Shown in pieces: positions 9,473 through 19,769 of a stretch of DNA of 64,000 bases. The position numbers and the translations under genes were made by a program. The stretch lies in the NCBI RefSeq assembly GCF_019972135.1, contig NZ_BPFI01000003.1, forward strand, positions 1 through 64,000. The letters run 5' to 3'. The stretch comes from Sulfurovum sp. TSL1 (GTDB taxonomy: Bacteria > Campylobacterota > Campylobacteria > Campylobacterales > Sulfurovaceae). The notes below the pieces were generated by a model, which saw nothing but the letters and a program-made list of their open reading frames with translations, ran no database searches and was not told the origin of the DNA. Each line of letters starts with the position of its first letter. The first letter of the stretch is position 1.

Positions 9473-10363
9473 TTACTTTGACAATGACTGGATATATACA
9501 GTCAAAGCTTTCTCTTGTATAGGTGTAATAAGGGTCTTAAATGATGGCATTTTACCGATCATACCCTTTTTACCGTTTTGCACTACATGATTCATCAATG
9601 TTGCATCATACGATACAAGATTCGGTGACATACCGTTGTTGCCTTTACCATCCATTCCATGGCAAGAACCACATGCTGCATATGCTGCAGGCTGTTCACC
9701 TTTCATACCTCCGGCAACATAGGCTGCGATCGCTTCAGCGTCTGCACCTTGTGCCATACCTGCAGGCATTGCACCCATAGGATACCCCAATTGGTTTTGA
9801 CCATTATTGATCACATCCAATACTTGTTCTTTACTCATTCTGGCAGTAAAGTCATGTGCTTTACCTGAAAGACCATCACCTGTCACACCGTGACATTGCT
9901 GACACTGTACCAAAAAGATAGACTCACCCATCTCTTTCAGTGTTGCTTCATCGGCATTTTTGTGGATCTCTTCAAACTTCGCATTGTAAGCCAAAACATC
10001 TTCATTGTACTCACCGATCTGGCTATATGCATTCACAGGATACCCTATGAGTCCATACCACATAGACCAAAGGAAAACTGCCAAGAATGAATAGGCCCAA
10101 CCTGAAGGAAGTTCATTCTCATATTCACCGATCCCATCCCAGTTATCCTCTGCAAGCTCACCAGATGGTATGTCTGTTTTCATCTGATTGACATACTTCA
10201 CCGCAACCGCTGCAGTGATCGTTGCAACCGCTATTGCTCCCCCCATTGTGATCGCATTGACAGAGTCTGCAAAGATATCAATATCCAGACTCGTTACAAC
10301 GGCAATCGTTGCTATGATCAATACCGCTGCAAACGCCAGCGCTTTTATCATTAATGAATTCAT
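9473..10363 (-). CDS. ccoP: cbb3-type cytochrome c oxidase subunit III, diheme
   Basis: CcoP (296 residues) is the diheme c subunit that delivers electrons toward the cbb3 oxidase. Two N-terminal hydrophobic segments (about 6-25 and 36-58) precede a third (about 88-112). The two heme-c sites are CQQCH (153-157) and CGSCH (about 230-234), with methionine-containing motifs YPMGAMPAGM and KGMIGKMP as likely axial ligand regions. Its start overlaps ccoQ by 4 bp. Residues 179-273 are 84% identical to a block in CoxB of the neighbouring oxidase operon, which is unexpected for proteins of different oxidase families. Confidence 0.95.
   Translation of the reverse strand: MNSLMIKALAFAAVLIIATIAVVTSLDIDIFADSVNAITMGGAIAVATITAAVAVKYVNQMKTDIPSGELAEDNWDGIGEYENELPSGWAYSFLAVFLWSMWYGLIGYPVNAYSQIGEYNEDVLAYNAKFEEIHKNADEATLKEMGESIFLVQCQQCHGVTGDGLSGKAHDFTARMSKEQVLDVINNGQNQLGYPMGAMPAGMAQGADAEAIAAYVAGGMKGEQPAAYAACGSCHGMDGKGNNGMSPNLVSYDATLMNHVVQNGKKGMIGKMPSFKTLITPIQEKALTVYIQSLSK
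9545..9829 (-). repeat. Heme-c block shared with coxB, copy in ccoP
   Basis: This 285-bp segment encodes CcoP residues 179-273, beginning EQVLDVINNG and ending IGKMP. It aligns without gaps to coxB 15158-15442, with 80 of 95 residues identical by hand count, and the DNA is also visibly similar over long runs. The surrounding parts of the two proteins are not alike to this degree. It is a diverged direct repeat about 5.6 kb apart. Confidence 0.85.
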
Positions 10364-10578
10364 TTATTCTCCTCCTTATATTCTCTTTCTGATGCGGGTT
10401 TATCTTCTACGGGTGTACTTGTCACTTCATCATCAAGTGCAATATTCCCGTATTTTTCATAATCACGCTCACCTTTCTTCTCACTTCTGTACAGGTGTAT
10501 AATATACCCGTACAGCATCACTACCAAAAAAATGGTCATAAAGAAACTGGCATAGCCTTGAAGATCCCTGATGTCCAT
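10360..10578 (-). CDS. ccoQ: cbb3-type oxidase subunit CcoQ
   Basis: This 72-residue protein has one transmembrane helix (about 10-30, YASFFMTIFLVVMLYGYIIH) followed by a charged tail with the YRSEKKGERDYEKYG pattern typical of CcoQ/FixQ. CcoQ stabilises the cbb3 complex. It lies in the standard place between ccoO and ccoP, overlapping ccoP by 4 bp. It is longer than many CcoQ proteins because of the acidic and basic tail, as seen in other Campylobacterota. Confidence 0.88.
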   Translation of the reverse strand: MDIRDLQGYASFFMTIFLVVMLYGYIIHLYRSEKKGERDYEKYGNIALDDEVTSTPVEDKPASEREYKEENK

Positions 10579-10588
10579 CTTCGTCTCT

Positions 10589-11257
10589 CTATTTCAAGCT
10601 GTTAAGGTAAGCAATCAGTGCTACGATCTCAGGTACTTCACCTCTCGCAACTGCTTCTTTAACATCTTTGTTTTTCATATCATCTGCAATCGCTTTTGCG
10701 TCCGCAAGAACTTTTGGTCTGTGTGCTTCCCATGCAGCTCTGGTTTTTTGGAACTCAGGTCCGTATGGTGTGTGAAATGCATTTTTAACGGTGACTGCTT
10801 CTGCATAGGCAGTTTCGATGTCAGCCAGGTTTGTGAACTGATGTTTATAGGCCGGCATAATTGAACCCGGAACGATCTCAGCAGGATTCAGCATGTGATT
10901 TTCATGCCAATCTGTTGTTCTGTAGTTCCCTACACGGTGAAGATCCGGACCTGTTCTTTTAGAACCCCAAAGAAATGGTCTGTCATAGGCATACTCACCT
11001 GAAAGTGAATAATCACCGTAACGATCCGTCTCAGATTTAAATGGACGGATAAGCTGTGAGTGACAAGACATACAGTTGTCTTTAATATAGACATTTTTAC
11101 CTGCAAGTTCAAGAACAGTACGAGGTTTAAGATCGACTACCGGTCTTGCCGCTTTCGCAAAGTTCGGTACGATCTCAATAAGCCCTGCAAATGCAATAAC
11201 GATCGAGACCCCCGAAGCGAAGAAAAACGGATTTTTTTCTAACCAATGAAAAAACAT
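10589..11257 (-). CDS. ccoO: cbb3-type oxidase monoheme subunit II
   Basis: CcoO (222 residues) is the membrane-anchored monoheme cytochrome c of the cbb3 oxidase. An N-terminal membrane helix (about 10-30) is followed by the heme site DNCMSCHSQ (about 57-65) and the family signature LWGSKRTGPDLHRVG. The motif PGSIMPAY near residue 133 supplies the likely methionine ligand. It starts 15 bases after the ccoN stop codon. Confidence 0.96.
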   Translation of the reverse strand: MFFHWLEKNPFFFASGVSIVIAFAGLIEIVPNFAKAARPVVDLKPRTVLELAGKNVYIKDNCMSCHSQLIRPFKSETDRYGDYSLSGEYAYDRPFLWGSKRTGPDLHRVGNYRTTDWHENHMLNPAEIVPGSIMPAYKHQFTNLADIETAYAEAVTVKNAFHTPYGPEFQKTRAAWEAHRPKVLADAKAIADDMKNKDVKEAVARGEVPEIVALIAYLNSLK

Positions 11258-11272
11258 AATAACCTACCTCCC

Positions 11273-12739
11273 TTATGCCATAGGTGTTCTAAACTGTGGT
11301 TCTTCTGTAATCTCTTTCGCAGAAGTCATAGTTTTATACATATTGTAAGCGAACATAATGAAACCAGTAAGGTACATTACACCTGCAAGCGCTCTGATCG
11401 TGTAGTAAGGGTGAAGTACATTGACCGTATCAATAAAGCTGTACATCAAGTTACCGTACTCATCTACCGCTCTCCACATCATACCTTGTGTAATACCTGC
11501 GATCCACATAGATGTAAAGTAAAGCACAACCGCTGTTGTCTGAAGCCAGAACTGTGTCTCCATAAGTTTTCGAGAGTAAATTTCTCTTTTGAACATACGC
11601 GGAGCCATGTGGAACAACGAAGCCATGATCATAAATGTTACCCAACCAAGTACACCATCATGCACGTGTCCAGGGATCCAGTCAGTAAAGTGTGCAATAG
11701 CATTGACCGATTTGATCGCTTGGATAGGACCTTCGATCGTTGATAACATATAGAATGTAGATGCAAGCACCATGAATTTGATCAGTGGGTTGTCTGTTAA
11801 CTGATTCCATTCACCTTTCATCGTAAGAAGCATGTTGATCGCCGAACCCCATGATGGCAAGATAAGCACTATAGAGAACGCAGAACCCATTGTTTGCATC
11901 CAATCAGGAACCGTTGACCATAAAAGGTGGTGAGAACCCGCCCAAAGGTAAACGAACATCAAACCCCAGAAAGAAAGCAAAGAGAGCTTATAAGAGTAGA
12001 TCGCCTGTCCGGACTCTTTTGGCAGGAAGTAATAGATCATACCAACGATTGGCACAGTAAACCCGAATGCAACGGCATTATGACCATACCACCACTGGAC
12101 CAGTGCATCATTGGTACCAGAATACATAGATACCGAGTGAGTGATCGCACCAAGGCCTTCCGTTGCGAAATACGTAGGGATAGACATATTGTTGAAAAGA
12201 TACAACATAGCAATACCAAGGAAACATGCAAGATAGTACCATATAGAGATATAAAGTGCTTTCTCTCTTCTGATTCCTATAAGACCCATCATACCAACAC
12301 CCCAAAGTACCCAAACAACCACAACCACAAGGTCAAATGGCCACTCATATTGAGCATACTCTTTAGAGCTTGAGATACCTAATAGTAAAGAGACTGTCGC
12401 TGCAAGTGCCCCTACAAAGTAGATCCAGAATTGAAGGTTTCCGATCACCATTAAAAGCTTCGATTCTGCCATAGATACCTTAAGTACTCTTTGTCCCAGG
12501 TAAAACCAGGTAGCAAAAATTCCAGAAACTGTAAATCCAAATACCACGGTATTTGTATGAAGTGGTCTGAGTCTTGAGAATGTCCCATACTCACCCAATA
12601 GATAGTTTAATTCAGGAAATGCCATTTGCGCGGCAATAATTGTACCGATCAACATTCCTAAAAATCCAAACAAAATAGTTAAAAATGTAAACTTTTTTGC
12701 CAATGAATAATCATATTCCAATGCTGCGTTTGATTGCAT
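11273..12739 (-). CDS. ccoN: cbb3-type cytochrome c oxidase catalytic subunit
   Basis: CcoN (488 residues) holds the b heme and the heme b3-CuB site where oxygen is reduced with high affinity. Twelve membrane segments are expected. QWWYGHNAVAF (about 214-224), GSHHLLWSTVPDW (about 268) and IPGHVHDGVLGW (about 354) carry the conserved copper and heme ligand histidines, and RPLHTNTVVFGF near the N-terminus carries the low-spin heme ligand. GGGGG lies just before the start. It opens the operon ccoN-ccoO-ccoQ-ccoP-DUF4006-small ORF-TPM-ccoH. Confidence 0.97.
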   Translation of the reverse strand: MQSNAALEYDYSLAKKFTFLTILFGFLGMLIGTIIAAQMAFPELNYLLGEYGTFSRLRPLHTNTVVFGFTVSGIFATWFYLGQRVLKVSMAESKLLMVIGNLQFWIYFVGALAATVSLLLGISSSKEYAQYEWPFDLVVVVVWVLWGVGMMGLIGIRREKALYISIWYYLACFLGIAMLYLFNNMSIPTYFATEGLGAITHSVSMYSGTNDALVQWWYGHNAVAFGFTVPIVGMIYYFLPKESGQAIYSYKLSLLSFWGLMFVYLWAGSHHLLWSTVPDWMQTMGSAFSIVLILPSWGSAINMLLTMKGEWNQLTDNPLIKFMVLASTFYMLSTIEGPIQAIKSVNAIAHFTDWIPGHVHDGVLGWVTFMIMASLFHMAPRMFKREIYSRKLMETQFWLQTTAVVLYFTSMWIAGITQGMMWRAVDEYGNLMYSFIDTVNVLHPYYTIRALAGVMYLTGFIMFAYNMYKTMTSAKEITEEPQFRTPMA

Positions 12740-12990: not shown

Positions 12991-13605
12991 TTATTGAAAC
13001 CAGCTTTTTATCGTAGCCCAGATCCCGGTTTCTATCCCTTTGTCTTCATTATCTAACTCAACAAATCGGTCACACCCGGCTTTCAATCCGGCATCACAAC
13101 CTTTTTTGTAAAATGCTTTTTCTTTTGTTCTGTTTTTTTCGACACCGAAACCGCCACGATAGATGATAGCTACATTAAAGCAGGCATCACCGCTTTTGAG
13201 TGCACACGCCTTTTCATAGAACTCTCTGGATCTGACATCATCAGGTCTTACGTCATGGCCGTCACGATAGATCGTTCCCATCGCCTCACATGCAGACTTT
13301 ATGCCTCTGCTGCATGATTTTTCAAGATAGGGTATAGCTGCACCGTAATTTGCATTCTTATAGTAGTTATCGCCCATAATATCACAGGCTCTATTCTCAC
13401 CAAGTGTACAGGCTTTACGGATATAGCTCAACCCCTCCTCTTTGATATCCTGTACCTTCGCATTATCTCCGGTGACCATAGGGAGTCCATGCTCATAACA
13501 GGCTGTTGCATTATTCTCACTGCACAAAACCTGTAGCGAGGTACTCTGTGATGCTGAGAGCGCCGATAAGATGAATACGCTGATTACTATAAGATGCTTT
13601 AACAT
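12991..13605 (-). CDS. Secreted Sel1-repeat (cysteine-rich) protein
   Basis: The 204-residue protein has a signal peptide (about 1-20) and four Sel1-like repeats with paired cysteines, for example KACTLGENRACDIMG, KSCSRGIKSACEAMG and KACALKSGDACFNVA. This pattern is that of the Helicobacter cysteine-rich Hcp family: periplasmic or secreted alpha/alpha repeat proteins with a disulfide in each repeat. These bind partners rather than catalyse. It follows the next upstream gene by 1 base at the end of the cox operon, so it might act in cytochrome or oxidase maturation, but that is inference. Confidence 0.75.
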   Translation of the reverse strand: MLKHLIVISVFILSALSASQSTSLQVLCSENNATACYEHGLPMVTGDNAKVQDIKEEGLSYIRKACTLGENRACDIMGDNYYKNANYGAAIPYLEKSCSRGIKSACEAMGTIYRDGHDVRPDDVRSREFYEKACALKSGDACFNVAIIYRGGFGVEKNRTKEKAFYKKGCDAGLKAGCDRFVELDNEDKGIETGIWATIKSWFQ

Positions 13606-13606
13606 A

Positions 13607-14140
13607 CTATTTACCTGCTCTTTTCTCTTTATCCTTTTTCATCGCCTCTACAAGGTGAGTGTTTTCAGCTTCCATCTGCTGGAACGCTTCACTCATTTTA
13701 GCCTTTAGTGCATCTTCTGCCAGACCATCAGCAAGTGCCGCTTCATAATATTTTTTAAAATCAGCGTAAGGTGTCACACCTGAAGAGAGAATCATTTTAA
13801 AATCAATACCGGGAAAATAGTCCTCCCATGCTTTAGTCGCTGTTTTTAATACCTTTTTGTTGTTAAAGTAAGAGACTGCCACAACGATCTGCATCGCAAA
13901 CACAAGCAGTATGATATAAAATACAATGGCCTGTGCTATACCCAACTCTTTAAAAGAGAGGGGGTTGAATATAGCAGCATACATCGCAAACGGTAAAATT
14001 AGAAATGCCAATTTGATCCATGTGTTGCTCAGTCCTCCAAACTGTGCATTATCATAAATAAGCCTTTTGTCTATTTTGTGATTTTTTTCTTTAAACACAC
14101 TCTGTATGATCGTTTGGATCGTGTATTGGTTCTCTTGCAT
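13607..14140 (-). CDS. Unrecognised membrane protein of the cox operon
   Basis: This 177-residue protein has two hydrophobic segments (about 43-60 and 68-92), a polar N-terminal part of about 40 residues, and a long charged, probably helical C-terminus rich in Ala, Glu and Lys. I recognise no family. It starts about 90 bases after cyoE and ends 1 base before the Sel1-repeat gene, so it is probably transcribed with the caa3-type oxidase genes. Confidence 0.6.
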   Translation of the reverse strand: MQENQYTIQTIIQSVFKEKNHKIDKRLIYDNAQFGGLSNTWIKLAFLILPFAMYAAIFNPLSFKELGIAQAIVFYIILLVFAMQIVVAVSYFNNKKVLKTATKAWEDYFPGIDFKMILSSGVTPYADFKKYYEAALADGLAEDALKAKMSEAFQQMEAENTHLVEAMKKDKEKRAGK

Positions 14141-14231: not shown

Positions 14232-15095
14232 TTAGAGATGATGTTTTACATACTCATCAATACTAAGGAGTATGATGATACCTAAAAATGCCGCATTGAT
14301 CTTCCAGAAGATCGCACGTGCATCTGTAAGTTTAAACTCTTTTTTGAGCAGTTGCAGGGATGTAATAAACGCCCATAGCCCAAGCGCTGCAGAGAGCACA
14401 ACCGTAACCGTTAAATAGACATTAAACGTATAGACCAGATAGATACCTGCATGTATGGTCAGTATGAGCCAGACAAATGTGAGTCTTTGCAGTGTACCTT
14501 CACCAAACAGACGCATGGCCGTAGGATACCCGCCGTCTTTGTAATCTCCATGAAAGAGCATCACCAAAAGCCAAAAGTGTGGTACCTGCCAGATAAAATA
14601 ATAGACTGCCAAAGCAATGAACTCTAACTCAAAGAGTGTATGGCCTGCCGCAAGCCACCCGATGGCCGGCGGGATAACGCCCAGTATTGCTCCAGGAACC
14701 ACTGCTACAGCCGATCTCTTTTTCAAAGGTGTATACATCAGGTTATACCAAATGAATGCAAAAGCAAAAAAGTTGATACCTGTAAGCCCTAAGAGTGAAT
14801 AGATCATCACAAATGAAACAAGGATCAATACCACTGCAATGATGATCCCTGTACGAGGGGACATACGACCCGCTGCGATAGGGCGATTTTTCGTTCTTTC
14901 CATCTTGGAATCTTCTTTGTACTCTTGTACTTGATTGAGGGTCGAAACCCCCATAGCTACTAAAAGTACAGAGAAGGTAGCAATAAACATATCTACACCA
15001 ATCTCTCCCTTTGCCATAATATAGGCAAAGAGTGCAGATAAACTGACTGCAAAGGAGAGAATAAACTTGGTGACTACAAAAAAGTCTTTTATCAT
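14232..15095 (-). CDS. cyoE: Protoheme IX farnesyltransferase (heme O synthase)
   Basis: The 287-residue protein belongs to the UbiA prenyltransferase family. The motif NQVQEYKEDSKMERTKNRPI (about 54-73) has the aspartate-rich pattern and MxRTxxRP that mark heme O synthases, and several hydrophobic helices follow. The enzyme adds farnesyl to heme b, giving heme O. Its start overlaps the coxB stop by 4 bp. No heme A synthase gene (ctaA) is in this window, so whether the oxidase receives heme O or heme A cannot be told here. It may also be called ctaB. Confidence 0.93.
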   Translation of the reverse strand: MIKDFFVVTKFILSFAVSLSALFAYIMAKGEIGVDMFIATFSVLLVAMGVSTLNQVQEYKEDSKMERTKNRPIAAGRMSPRTGIIIAVVLILVSFVMIYSLLGLTGINFFAFAFIWYNLMYTPLKKRSAVAVVPGAILGVIPPAIGWLAAGHTLFELEFIALAVYYFIWQVPHFWLLVMLFHGDYKDGGYPTAMRLFGEGTLQRLTFVWLILTIHAGIYLVYTFNVYLTVTVVLSAALGLWAFITSLQLLKKEFKLTDARAIFWKINAAFLGIIILLSIDEYVKHHL

Positions 15096-16303
15096 TTGGC
15101 GTTTTCGAGATATTCAGCAATTGTTGAAATCTCTTCTTCTGTCATATCAGGGTATGCTGGCATTTGACCTATCATACCTTTTTTACCATTATGCAATACA
15201 TGACCTATAAGTGGTGCATCGTATTCTACAAGATTTGGAGACATACCGTTCATACCTTTACCATCCATTCCATGGCAAGAACTACATGCTGCAAATGATG
15301 CAGGTTGTTCACCTTTCATGCCACCAGCTACATACGCAGCGATCTCTTCAGCATCTGCACCTGTAGCCATACCAGCTGGCATTGCTCCCATAGGATAACC
15401 AAGTTGATCTTGACCATGATTGATGACATCCAATACTTGTTCTTCAGTTAATCTTCTAGTTTTAAGAGAAGGTCCAACTAATACTTTATCTGTTTTAATT
15501 GCATGACATTGTGTACATCCATGTCGTTGTACGAGTGCATCACCACCTTTAGCATAATTACCTTTTGGTGTATTATCTGTACCGTTAAACCATGCATCAT
15601 ACTCCTTTTTTGGAAGTACTACTACTCTAGAGTACATATATGAGTGGTCTGTACCACAGTACTCCGCACATTCCACATCATACTCACCTACTTTAGATAC
15701 ATTAAACCATTGTTTTGTTGTACGTCCTGGTACTACATCCTCTTTCATACGGAACGCAGGGATATAAAATGAGTGGATCACATCATCCACCGGTGCTGTC
15801 ATCTCCAAGATAACATCTGTATTTACCGGTACATAGAGTGCAGAGATACCCATTGTACCCTCTTCGATCACTTTACCTTTCTCATCCATAACAGGTTTTT
15901 TGAAAGCGCCACCGACTTTATGTACATATCCGCTTTTATTTGCAGGATACTCATATTCCCACTTCCATTTAGAACCCTCAACCTTGACCACAACAGTGTC
16001 ATCTGTGACTGTTGGAAGTGTTCTGAACATTTGCAGTGTCGTATTACCGTAATAAAAGAAAACCATTACTGCAATGATAGGAATGATCGTCCATGCCAAT
16101 TCCAATCCAGTATGATGGGTTAATGTACCAATCTCTTCATCTTTAACCTTATCTGCACGATACTTCCATGCAAAGTAGAACATCGGTGCAACCACTGATA
16201 AAAATAGTGCAACTGAAATCCATACGTGCAGCCAAAACGCAAAATCAACATCTGCGTTAAAACTTGATGCACTTGTACTAAATCCTTCTAATGTATTACT
16301 CAT
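15092..16303 (-). CDS. coxB: caa3-type oxidase subunit II fused to two cytochrome c sites
   Basis: CoxB (403 residues) receives electrons for the heme-copper oxidase. Two N-terminal helices (about 22-45 and 70-92) precede the cupredoxin domain, whose CuA ligands are intact: IHSFYIP supplies the His and CAEYCGTDHSYM (about 210-221) supplies Cys, Cys, His and Met. A C-terminal extension holds two heme-c sites, CTQCH (about 263) and CSSCH (about 339). Ordinary caa3 subunits have one. Residues 288-382 are nearly the same as part of CcoP from the adjacent cbb3 operon. It lies after coxD and overlaps cyoE. Confidence 0.94.
   Translation of the reverse strand: MSNTLEGFSTSASSFNADVDFAFWLHVWISVALFLSVVAPMFYFAWKYRADKVKDEEIGTLTHHTGLELAWTIIPIIAVMVFFYYGNTTLQMFRTLPTVTDDTVVVKVEGSKWKWEYEYPANKSGYVHKVGGAFKKPVMDEKGKVIEEGTMGISALYVPVNTDVILEMTAPVDDVIHSFYIPAFRMKEDVVPGRTTKQWFNVSKVGEYDVECAEYCGTDHSYMYSRVVVLPKKEYDAWFNGTDNTPKGNYAKGGDALVQRHGCTQCHAIKTDKVLVGPSLKTRRLTEEQVLDVINHGQDQLGYPMGAMPAGMATGADAEEIAAYVAGGMKGEQPASFAACSSCHGMDGKGMNGMSPNLVEYDAPLIGHVLHNGKKGMIGQMPAYPDMTEEEISTIAEYLENAK
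15158..15442 (-). repeat. Heme-c block shared with ccoP, copy in coxB
   Basis: This 285-bp segment encodes CoxB residues 288-382, beginning EQVLDVINHG and ending IGQMP. It matches ccoP 9545-9829 without gaps, 80 of 95 residues identical by hand count. It includes the second heme-c site (CSSCH) and both likely methionine ligand motifs, so a complete functional cytochrome module appears to have been shared between the two oxidases. Confidence 0.85.
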
Positions 16304-16318
16304 ATAATAAAACCCCTC

Positions 16319-16648
16319 TTAGTGTGCTGCAGGAGCAGTAATATGACTTTCAGCTCCAAATTGGAAATTGGCAACATCAATACCAATGACGATAATAAAG
16401 AAAACTGTCACTAATGCTAATGCAAACCATACCATAGCTGCAATCAGTTTCTCACCTTTTAAGTGCATGTAGTAGATTACGATCAACCAAGCTTTAACAA
16501 CTGCAATGAGCATTTGTGCCAGAAATGTTGAATGTGTCATAAACATATGCGGTTGAATAAATGTAATCGCTGTTAACAACAATAGTCCTACAAGTACTTT
16601 ATAATATATTTTTTTCTCTTCTTGATAATTTACTGTATTAGTGTCCAC
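16319..16648 (-). CDS. coxD: Cytochrome c oxidase subunit IV-like protein
   Basis: This 109-residue protein has three hydrophobic helices (about 14-30, 38-60 and 68-92) and the LKGEKL element between the second and third, as in prokaryotic subunit IV (CoxD/CtaF family). The subunit is thought to assist CuB insertion and complex stability. It overlaps coxC by 11 bp and precedes coxB by 15 bases. Assignment rests on size, topology and place. Confidence 0.82.
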   Translation of the reverse strand: MDTNTVNYQEEKKIYYKVLVGLLLLTAITFIQPHMFMTHSTFLAQMLIAVVKAWLIVIYYMHLKGEKLIAAMVWFALALVTVFFIIVIGIDVANFQFGAESHITAPAAH

Positions 16649-17327
16649 CTGTAGCTCCTCCTGCTCCGATCATATAGTAGTAAGGAAACACGAATACCCA
16701 AATAAGGTGTACGATATCCCAGTATAGTGCGATGTTCCAGTGTAATATGTGATGCTCTGGGCTCACTTTACCCGCATTGATTCTTTTCAGTAACCAAAGC
16801 ATCAAACCAATACCAATGATAATGTGGAATCCGTGGAGTCCAGTCATTGAAAAGTAAAGACCAAAGAATAATTTTTGACCAAATGGTAAAGATGACTCAG
16901 GTAATAGCTTGTCATGCATCAAGAAGATACCGTGATGGTATTCAGCTGTCCATTCAAATCCTTTGATCACCAAGAAAGCAACCGCTAAAATGATAGTCGC
17001 CCAGATCATAAGCTTGGCACCTTTCACATCACCCGCTCTCATTCTAAGGAGTCCTAGACCCATTGTAAGTGCCGATACAAGCAGGATCACTGTATTGGTA
17101 CCACCCAATAGTCTATTTAAAGATGCAGATGCATCCAAAAAATCTTGTGGGTGCAGTGTATTATAATAAGCAAGGGCAAGGAACATGGCCCCAAACATCA
17201 TTACTTCTGTAAGCATGAACAGCCAGAAACCTAGTTTCCCGCCGTAAAAATCACCTTGCCAACCTTGTACTTCATGTTGATTCCCATCACGATCTATCGC
17301 GATCTCAGGTACGTATTCGTGTCCCAT
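16638..17327 (-). CDS. coxC: Cytochrome c oxidase subunit III
   Basis: The 229-residue protein is subunit III, a seven-helix (here about five to seven) membrane protein that stabilises proton uptake in the oxidase. Characteristic stretches are GFWLFMLTEVMMFGAMFLA near the N-terminus, YFSMTGLHGFHIIIG in the middle and WNIALYWDIVHLIWVFVFPYYY at the end. Its start overlaps the coxA stop by one base. Confidence 0.94.
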   Translation of the reverse strand: MGHEYVPEIAIDRDGNQHEVQGWQGDFYGGKLGFWLFMLTEVMMFGAMFLALAYYNTLHPQDFLDASASLNRLLGGTNTVILLVSALTMGLGLLRMRAGDVKGAKLMIWATIILAVAFLVIKGFEWTAEYHHGIFLMHDKLLPESSLPFGQKLFFGLYFSMTGLHGFHIIIGIGLMLWLLKRINAGKVSPEHHILHWNIALYWDIVHLIWVFVFPYYYMIGAGGATGGH

Positions 17328-18982
17328 TAGTCTATCCTTTGCATCGTTTCATAATTAAATTTAACCACTGGCTCACCATGCTTATATTCATATGGATCAA
17401 AATCAACATATGGCACTTTAGAGTGGTTATCTAGTGGTGGAGGTGATGTTGGTAAGTGCCACTCAAGTGTTGTAGCATGCCATGGGTTAGGCGTCGTTGG
17501 TTCACCTTTTGTCCAACCTTTAAAGAATACCCAGAACATATAGATAAGACCCGTAATAAAGATCACTGCTCCTATAAATGAGATCTGGTGGTAAATTTGA
17601 AATTCTGGCAAGTAGTCAAAATAACGTCTTGGCATACCGTAGTAACCAGCGATGAACATTGGGAACCATAGTAGGTTGAATCCAATAAAATTCAAATAGA
17701 AAGCGATTTTTGCTTTTGTTTCATTATACATTTTACCTGTAATAAGCGGGAACCAATAGTGCATACCGGCAAACATCAAGAATACAACCCCACCAAGAAT
17801 TGCATAATGGAAGTGTGCAACCGTGTAATACGTATCTTGTAAGTGTACGTCCATACCGATCATTGTAATAGTAATACCGGTAATACCCCCGATCGCAAAT
17901 GTGATAATTGTTCCTAATGCCCAGATCATTGGTGTAGAAAGAACGATTTTACCTTGATACATTGTAGCAACCCAGTCATAGAACTTTACACCTGTCGGGA
18001 TAGCAACAAAGAAAGTGAGGAATGAGAATACTGTTTTAGCAATATCCGACATACCTGATGTATAAAGGTGGTGACCCCATACAAGGTAACCGATACCTGC
18101 AATAGATGCCGAAGAAAGAGCGATTGTTCTGTATCCGAATACCTCTTTTCTTGAGAATGTAGGAATGATTTCAGACATAATACCGAATGCCGGAAGGATC
18201 ATAAGATAAACAGCCGGGTGAGAATAGATCCAGAATAAGTGTTGGAACAATACAGGGTCTCCCCCTTTAGCCGGATCAAAGATACCGATACCGAAATATT
18301 TTTCCAAAATAGCCAATACAAGCGTAATACCGACAACCGGTGTCGCAAGAAGCTGGATCCATGCCGTTGCATAGATACCCCATACAAAAAGTGGCATTTT
18401 AAAGAAAGTCATACCTGGTGCTCTAAGTCTGTGAATCGTCACAAGGAAGTTAAGCCCAGTAAGAATAGATGCAAAACCAAGAACAAATGCAGCCACAAGC
18501 GCCATAATAACGTTTGTTCCTGTATTCATTGAGTATGGTGCATAGAATGTCCAACCTGTATCCGCTACACCTTCACCTATAAATAGTGATGCAAGTGCAA
18601 TACAACAACCCGCAATATAGAGCCAGAATGTAAACCAGTTCAATCTTGGGAAAGATACATCCTTCGCACCGATCATCAATGGCATAACAATGTTTCCAAA
18701 TATCGCAGGGATCCCCGGGATAATAAACAGGAAGATCATGATCACACCATGTAGCGTAAATGCCTGGTTAAACGTGTCTCCATCCATATATTGTCCCCCT
18801 GGTGCAAACAGTTCAAGTCTCATTGCAAATGCTGTAAATACAGCTACAAAAAAGAATACAAACATTACAGCTGCATACATAATACCAATTCTTTTATGGT
18901 CGATAGTAAGCATCCACTGCATGAATGTACTCTTAGGGTGCCCGATGGCACAGTGTGTTTCGTCGAAATAAGTTTTACTCAT
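17327..18982 (-). CDS. coxA: Heme-copper oxidase subunit I, A2 type
   Basis: CoxA (551 residues) is the catalytic subunit with low-spin heme, high-spin heme and CuB. Ligand motifs are FTLHGVIMIF, IYSHPAVYLMILPAFG (about 252-267), GHHLYTSGM (about 301) and VAHFHYAILGG (about 386). PTGVKFYDW (about 328) contains the K-channel Thr and Lys. The D-channel glutamate of HPEVY is replaced by Ala and the motif reads YSHPAV, which defines the A2 subclass (as in Rhodothermus caa3), where Tyr and Ser take over. The start overlaps the SCO1 gene by 8 bp. Confidence 0.95.
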   Translation of the reverse strand: MSKTYFDETHCAIGHPKSTFMQWMLTIDHKRIGIMYAAVMFVFFFVAVFTAFAMRLELFAPGGQYMDGDTFNQAFTLHGVIMIFLFIIPGIPAIFGNIVMPLMIGAKDVSFPRLNWFTFWLYIAGCCIALASLFIGEGVADTGWTFYAPYSMNTGTNVIMALVAAFVLGFASILTGLNFLVTIHRLRAPGMTFFKMPLFVWGIYATAWIQLLATPVVGITLVLAILEKYFGIGIFDPAKGGDPVLFQHLFWIYSHPAVYLMILPAFGIMSEIIPTFSRKEVFGYRTIALSSASIAGIGYLVWGHHLYTSGMSDIAKTVFSFLTFFVAIPTGVKFYDWVATMYQGKIVLSTPMIWALGTIITFAIGGITGITITMIGMDVHLQDTYYTVAHFHYAILGGVVFLMFAGMHYWFPLITGKMYNETKAKIAFYLNFIGFNLLWFPMFIAGYYGMPRRYFDYLPEFQIYHQISFIGAVIFITGLIYMFWVFFKGWTKGEPTTPNPWHATTLEWHLPTSPPPLDNHSKVPYVDFDPYEYKHGEPVVKFNYETMQRID

Positions 18983-19769
18983 CTATGTCTCTCCTTTGGT
19001 TTAGATGTTCCTCTTGATCTCTTCTCCCTGCCTTGATAAGCCAGATAAAAAAGATAATCGTAATCGTTAATATTACTGTTGCTGCTATCTTCTCCCAGGC
19101 AAAAACATAAGTTTTGCCTTTTGGATCGTATGCGAAACAGTAAAGTAAGGTTTTAGCTATGGTCGGTCCAACCTTTCCTTGTGCTGACTCCAACACTGCC
19201 ATTTTCACATCAAAAGGAAGCTGTTCGATACCGTTAAGGTAACGTGTGATCTTCCCTTCCGGTGAAATAATGATCAATGTTGCAGCATGAATCCACTCAA
19301 CCACACCTGCTTTGGATACTTCCTTTTTATATGTAAATCCAACTTTGTCGGCCAAAATAGCCGAAGAGTTGTTTTCACTGAGTAAAAAGTGCCATGCATC
19401 CTTCACGTAAGGTCTGGTCATCGCGTCGAACATCGTTTTTCTTTTCGCTTTTGCTAAAGGCGGCGTTTCATCCGGTGCAAAACTGATGGTCAACGCTTTG
19501 TAGTCAGTATTTTCAGCCAAGTCAAGTTTAGACAGCATTTTTGCCATATCTTCTAGTTGTGGTGTACAGATACCTGCACATCTAAAGTAGTTCAAAGAGA
19601 TGATCGTTGGTTTCCCGTCCATATACTCTTTGAGGGTTCTACTTTTGCCGTCTTCGTCTATAAATGTCAAATCAAGTGGAACATATTCACCTAACTTTTC
19701 ATTTACGCCTAAAGACTCTGCTTGTAGTACAGTTAGAAACAGTAATACAAGCATCACAATTTTTTTCAT
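18975..19769 (-). CDS. SCO1/SenC-type copper chaperone
   Basis: This 264-residue protein has a signal sequence, a thioredoxin-like SCO domain with the copper-binding pair FRCAGICTPQ (about 67-76) and distal histidine WIHAATLIII (about 163), and an extra C-terminal membrane helix (about 228-248). SCO proteins load or reduce the CuA site of subunit II. It is the first gene of the cox cluster and overlaps coxA, fitting a dedicated chaperone for CoxB. GGGGGGAG lies upstream of the start. The C-terminal anchor is an unusual addition. Confidence 0.9.
   Translation of the reverse strand: MKKIVMLVLLFLTVLQAESLGVNEKLGEYVPLDLTFIDEDGKSRTLKEYMDGKPTIISLNYFRCAGICTPQLEDMAKMLSKLDLAENTDYKALTISFAPDETPPLAKAKRKTMFDAMTRPYVKDAWHFLLSENNSSAILADKVGFTYKKEVSKAGVVEWIHAATLIIISPEGKITRYLNGIEQLPFDVKMAVLESAQGKVGPTIAKTLLYCFAYDPKGKTYVFAWEKIAATVILTITIIFFIWLIKAGRRDQEEHLNQRRDIDE

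Follow-up and report, generated by a model that had tools for sequence, protein, structure and literature searches.

A hybrid two-haem CoxB in Sulfurovum carries a CcoP-derived segment and a 3′ end probably exchanged among coxB genes

Subunit II (CoxB) of the caa3-type oxidase in Sulfurovum sp. TSL1 is a hybrid with two c-type haem sites, in which a piece of the cbb3 oxidase subunit CcoP, running from the middle of the first cytochrome domain to the methionine of the second, has added one haem period of 77 residues in register. The gene lies in the first 64,000 nucleotides of contig NZ_BPFI01000003.1, hereafter the window, to which all feature coordinates refer. Its history is very likely one of an ancient fusion between coxB and ccoP, after which the 3′ end of the hybrid was swapped among coxB backbones and later, with less certainty, underwent a short conversion. 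The genome under study is designated G000; other G and L labels denote genomes and loci of the relatives compared, which comprise Sulfurovum and allied Campylobacterota.

The caa3 and cbb3 operons occupy a single stretch, in the order sco-coxA-coxC-coxD-coxB-ctaB-(two ORFs)-ccoN-ccoO-small ORF-ccoP, with the following genes:

9473..10363, reverse strand: ccoP, 296 aa, dihaem subunit of the cbb3 oxidase (Pfam FixP_N, Cytochrome_CBB3)
10360..10578, reverse strand: small ORF in the ccoQ position, 72 aa (position and sequence)
10589..11257, reverse strand: ccoO (Pfam FixO)
11273..12739, reverse strand: ccoN (Pfam COX1 and position upstream of ccoO)
14232..15095, reverse strand: ctaB-like haem O synthase gene (Pfam UbiA)
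15092..16303, reverse strand: coxB, 403 aa, CuA domain and two c-type haem sites (Pfam COX2, COX2_TM, Cytochrome_CBB3)
16319..16648, reverse strand: coxD (Pfam COX4_pro)
16638..17327, reverse strand: coxC (operon position and sequence)
17327..18982, reverse strand: coxA (Pfam COX1)
18975..19769, reverse strand: sco (Pfam SCO1-SenC)

CoxB has the COX2 and COX2_TM domains and CuA ligands of an A-family caa3 subunit II, and it stands among the corresponding genes, of which coxA, coxD and sco are identified by Pfam and coxC by position and sequence only. CcoP combines FixP_N with a dihaem cytochrome and adjoins ccoNO. Between ctaB and ccoN (12991-14140) are two ORFs, one for a protein with Sel1 repeats and one for a 177-aa protein that has no Pfam match; both align in near relatives, except that the Sel1 ORF is mostly missing in G203, in which the interval between coxB and ccoP is about 0.7 kb shorter. 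Wherever both genes were seen in loci of the genus, single-haem ends included, coxB and ccoP are 4.0-4.8 kb apart on the same strand. An assembly artefact is unlikely, as the gene recurs at the same distance and in the same order in G230 (a single contig, 99% complete), G270 and G271. No plasmid record covered 80% of CoxB.

Within coxB and ccoP, the shared block and the segments that flank it in the hybrid are located as follows:

9545..9829, reverse strand: shared block, CcoP copy (ccoP codons 179-273), identical to CoxB 288-382 at 80 of 95 residues
15158..15442, reverse strand: CcoP-derived segment of CoxB (coxB codons 288-382), grouping with the other 15 hybrid CoxBs in a single clade inside the CcoPs
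15443..15616, reverse strand: CoxB-type first half of the haem-1 domain (coxB codons 230-287, CxxCH at 263), score 77 against single-haem CoxB and 13 against CcoP
15095..15157, reverse strand: CoxB-type C-terminal helix (coxB codons 383-403), nearer single-haem CoxB than CcoP in 16 of 16 hybrids

The first-pass annotation of this DNA had noted the match of 80 residues in 95, and an ungapped, codon-by-codon alignment bears it out, including a single CxxCH (CcoP 231, CoxB 340) and two MP motifs (CcoP 199 and 272, CoxB 308 and 381). Its remark that the flanks are far less alike also holds, since identity between the two proteins collapses to 7 of 25 aligned residues ahead of the block and 2 of 19 behind it. 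In CcoP the block extends from the second half of the haem-1 domain through the linker and the haem-2 CxxCH as far as the Met-Pro of that domain. The DNA of the two copies is about 84-87% identical over the first two thirds of the block and 80% over the last third, and a genome-wide search with the CoxB block retrieved CcoP at an E value of 9e-51, far past chance. The CcoPs of close relatives match this CoxB block at 83-84%, the CcoP of the same genome tying for best at 84%, and thus the high identity is not peculiar to the pair found here.

The sequences on either side of the block are of CoxB type. The scores listed for the region around the first CxxCH are means over the hybrids, and the final helix past the last Met-Pro scores 23 against single-haem CoxB and 10.6 against CcoP, compared with about -7 for shuffled tails. 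The two CxxCH motifs are separated by 77 residues both in CcoP and in the hybrid CoxB. Given these flanks and the equal spacing, the CcoP piece must have taken the place of the central part of a single cytochrome domain. The recombination path, as we infer it in detail, would begin long ago in a Sulfurovum-type ancestor, in which recombination between coxB and ccoP swapped the middle of the cytochrome domain of a single-haem CoxB for the CcoP stretch; the closeness of the two genes on one strand would ease recombination between their cytochrome domains. The 3′ end of the hybrid gene, from about codon 230 to the stop, would then have moved among coxB backbones by homologous recombination, with the lineage of this genome trading its single-haem end for the hybrid one, and about 24 bases of its own ccoP would later have been copied into coxB.

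Several kinds of subunit II end occur in the genus sample, which consists of 78 genomes besides G000. Single-haem ends are present in G224, G252, G205 and G208, for example, and CcoP-type hybrid ends in G000, G230, G270, G271, G249, G203, G213, G226, G215, G239 and G243. Beyond this sample, hybrids were found in Sulfuricurvum (L064), Sulfurimonas (L065-L067) and G170, a member of another family, which brings the hybrids to 16 in at least three genera (Sulfurovum, Sulfurimonas, Sulfuricurvum); a strong match spanning the junction of the hybrid was found in only three of 397 genomes sampled across the phylum. In a tree of 94 block sequences, the 16 hybrid CoxBs make up a single clade (99/94) that falls within Sulfurovum-type CcoPs, and the G000 CcoP is placed with those of G224, G230, G270 and G271, so that each G000 copy is found with its own family. 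Segment 288-382 of CoxB is therefore nested within CcoP, whereas the flanks, 230-287 and 383-403, are CoxB-type. The block is short, at 95 residues, and its tree narrows the donor no further than to Sulfurovum-type CcoPs. The blocks of the Sulfurimonas hybrids are 69-75% identical to Sulfurovum CcoPs and just 42-49% identical to the CcoP of their own genomes.

Related arrangements were encountered in the same survey. Tandem copies of the single-haem domain in the CoxBs of G206, G233, G234 and G222 (L121, L122, L123, L124) give the genus a further way of arriving at a two-haem subunit II. G000 itself has a second subunit II of 435 aa (G000:C1:1367674-1368411; L129:5672-6976), belonging to another lineage, in which two haem domains of the canonical CoxB type are arranged in tandem. 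The CoxB at L068:6437-7630 has a dihaem tail that is entirely CcoP-like and falls elsewhere in the block tree, and is probably an independent fusion. In the Sulfurimonas loci L065, L066 and L067, a Sulfurimonas-type ccoP is found about 4 kb downstream of the hybrid coxB, an arrangement shared with Sulfurovum; here a transferred caa3 operon seems to have landed next to a resident cbb3 operon.

Recent duplication, gene conversion or domain fusion within this genome had been put forward in the first-pass annotation as the source of the shared block. Domain fusion stands, albeit as an old event that did not take place in this genome, and gene conversion is moderately supported for a short CcoP-to-CoxB tract at about CoxB 342-349 but not for the block as a whole. 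Recent copying of the entire block would be in keeping with the rank of the genome's own CcoP as joint best CcoP match to the CoxB block, at 84%. Yet the CoxB block is 95% identical to the CoxB of G230, CcoP is 95-96% identical to the CcoPs of G224, G230, G270 and G271, and G224 is without any hybrid CoxB. In addition, synonymous divergence between ccoP and coxB across the block (dS 0.59) exceeds that between the CoxB backbones of G000 and G230 (dS 0.34). The family tree proposed in the annotation as a check came out against recent exchange, with the result that the annotation had said would refute it, because the two copies do not group together to the exclusion of their orthologues but join their respective families, with the hybrid segments in their 99/94 clade. 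The trees and the relatives' sequences thus lead us to reject recent whole-block duplication or conversion, which is highly improbable. Conservation alone, with all small cytochrome c domains being alike, has even less to recommend it: both CcoP and CoxB match Pfam Cytochrome_CBB3, but the single-haem CoxB tails of near relatives are only about 33-41% identical to this CoxB tail, and the hybrids are nested within one CcoP group. Since the segment nests inside CcoPs, chance or general conservation is rejected, its probability being close to nil.

The backbone and the tail of the hybrid genes have different histories. In a tree of CoxB residues 1-225, which include the CuA domain, the hybrid label changes five times and a single hybrid clade is rejected (AU p 4e-10), whereas a tree of the first-haem half recovers the hybrids as one clade (91/95). 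The tail of the G000 lineage (codons 230-287) groups with G203-type hybrids in the left-half tree (98/85), while the backbone is G224-like. The G224 locus is about 90% identical to that of G000 at the DNA level, but its coxB has an end of the single-haem kind, and the match between the two loci breaks off near codon 230 and resumes in ctaB. The conflict with the CuA tree, together with the single-haem end of G224 in so similar a locus, argues that the tail was swapped between coxB genes after one fusion. Relative to G249, G203, G213, G226, G215 and G243, the backbone shows 42-54% synonymous differences and codons 230-341 show 21-30%. Single-haem tails, too, resemble one another somewhat more closely than their backbones do, with a milder drop, and part of the lower synonymous divergence in hybrid tails may therefore reflect constraint. 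The alternative that one ancient hybrid descended vertically, with several later reversions to the single-haem form and no spread of the hybrid tail, draws on the fact that label changes in the tree do not separate gain from loss. It is nonetheless improbable, because the single-haem ends of G224, G252, G208 and G205 have diverged about as much as their backbones, as if inherited, because the G000-lineage tail joins G203-type tails in conflict with its backbone, and because reversions would themselves require tail swapping. Divergence of these four single-haem ends in step with their backbones instead suggests that it was the G000 lineage that probably replaced a single-haem coxB end with a hybrid one.

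A small part of the CcoP-derived segment may have been renewed more recently. Two intervals are involved:

15257..15280, reverse strand: probable CcoP-to-CoxB conversion tract (coxB codons 342-349, may extend to 357), six consecutive diagnostic sites
9644..9667, reverse strand: putative donor counterpart (ccoP codons 233-240), by codon comparison

Diagnostic sites are those that separate the CcoPs of this lineage from other hybrid CoxBs. At CoxB codons 342-349, six of them form an unbroken CcoP-like run that is confined to G000 and G230 (p 0.0013 and 0.0029 by permutation); the run is absent from the CoxBs of G270 and G271, which differ little from that of G000 at codons 230-341 and 383-403 and strongly at 342-382. 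Over 24 bases, the G000 coxB tract (TCT TGC CAT GGA ATG GAT GGT AAA) is the same as its own ccoP. Most of the other CoxBs listed in the comparison read TCA TGT CAT GGT GAA, and the ATG, a three-base change from the usual GAA, is found at that codon in no other CoxB compared. In a tree of 96 bases of DNA, the CoxBs of G000 and G230 join the CcoPs of this lineage (87/87), although the AU test does not reject one CoxB clade (p 0.31); the 57 bases at the core of the tract offer too little sequence for a tree to discriminate. A short conversion from CcoP to CoxB at about codons 342-349 is, on these patterns, the explanation that we somewhat favor. It is possible, though less probable, that G000 and G230 keep the original hybrid sequence and that G270 and G271 received the tract of another hybrid, as could be read from the closer match of G271 CoxB to Sulfurimonas L065 at codons 342-360 (91%) than at 288-330 (84%), and from the protein tree, which sets G000 and G230 outside the other 14 hybrids. 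Conversion is favored over such retention by the GGA-ATG pair, which is common to this lineage's CcoPs and missing in the 15 other CoxBs, by the occurrence of ATG at this position in 7 of 77 CcoPs, 5 of them from this clade, and by dS to the genome's own CcoP, which is 0.31 at codons 331-360 and 0.91 in the adjoining part. Within ccoP, codons 179-221 (9701-9829) exhibit lower synonymous divergence among the hybrid holders G000, G230, G270 and G271 than against G224, with its single-haem CoxB; the counts are small, and the low divergence is possibly a trace of further exchange.

CoxB has CxxCH motifs at 263 and 340, both downstream of CuA as in ccaa3 oxidases, and MP at 308 and 381. Across 17 sequences there is no variation in the CuA ligands (His177, Cys212, Glu214, Cys216, His220, Met223) or in either pair of motifs, CxxCH and Met-Pro, and an active CuA and two haems c are therefore expected. 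The AlphaFold model of CoxB is moderate (pLDDT 69.5), and the fold comparison spanned residues 2-260 and is thus uninformative on the two haem domains. On the model of caa3 and CcoP, we would expect electrons to enter at the CcoP-derived outer haem and to move through the hybrid inner haem to CuA, and on to haem a/a3. The CcoP-like character of the outer haem domain makes it plausible that the caa3 and cbb3 oxidases share one electron donor. Conceivably, although we think it rather unlikely, the coxB 3′ end behaves as a set of recombining alleles in which single-haem, tandem and CcoP-type ends are swapped on stable backbones, the CcoP-type end allowing the low-affinity A-family oxidase to use the same donor as the neighboring high-affinity C-family oxidase and staying matched to ccoP through occasional conversion.

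Heme-copper oxidases of families A and C have little sequence in common even in the core subunit, and the subunits through which electrons enter them are usually regarded as separate inventions. A defined piece of CcoP, built into CoxB at junctions that respect the domain register and then spread, represents a natural exchange of parts between oxidase families. The single-haem allele of G224 and the hybrid alleles of G000 and G230, in loci that are about 90% identical, are near-isogenic natural variants that allow a direct test of what a second entry haem contributes to rate, donor choice and oxygen use.

Two-haem subunits II are already known, dihaem (ccaa3) forms having been reported for Desulfovibrio vulgaris, Shewanella oneidensis CoxB and Pseudomonas pseudoalcaligenes CoxM (PMC3899249, PMC5492768). 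A limited literature search turned up no account of a CcoP segment lying inside CoxB, of gene conversion by ccoP or of a dihaem subunit II fusion in Campylobacterota, nor was the CcoP origin or tail swapping found described. In a 2011 survey, similarity among subunits II, cytochrome c domains included, was unrelated to enzyme type (PMC3084760). The caa3 oxidase of Sulfurimonas pluma, 70% identical to that of Sulfurovum sp. AR, has been described as horizontally gained (PMC10066037); it is likewise a Campylobacterota caa3, and the Sulfurimonas MAG loci L065-L067 studied here carry the hybrid tail. The parts of that account consulted treat the oxidase as a whole, and in them neither a CcoP-type tail nor tail swapping was found. 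Among structures in the PDB, the best sequence match to CoxB is subunit IIc of the Thermus caa3 oxidase (2yev_B), which likewise joins CuA to a fused cytochrome c but has a single haem c. CcoP/FixP of cbb3 oxidases (3mk7_C, 8snh_G) provides a dihaem module matching the second haem domain of CoxB, and differs in having the N-terminal FixP membrane part and in lacking CuA. Like the ccaa3 oxidases, here compared by description, the hybrid is an A-family subunit II with CuA and two C-terminal CxxCH haem c sites; the second half of its haem-1 domain, and all of haem 2 as far as the Met ligand, derive from CcoP, an origin for which no account was found.
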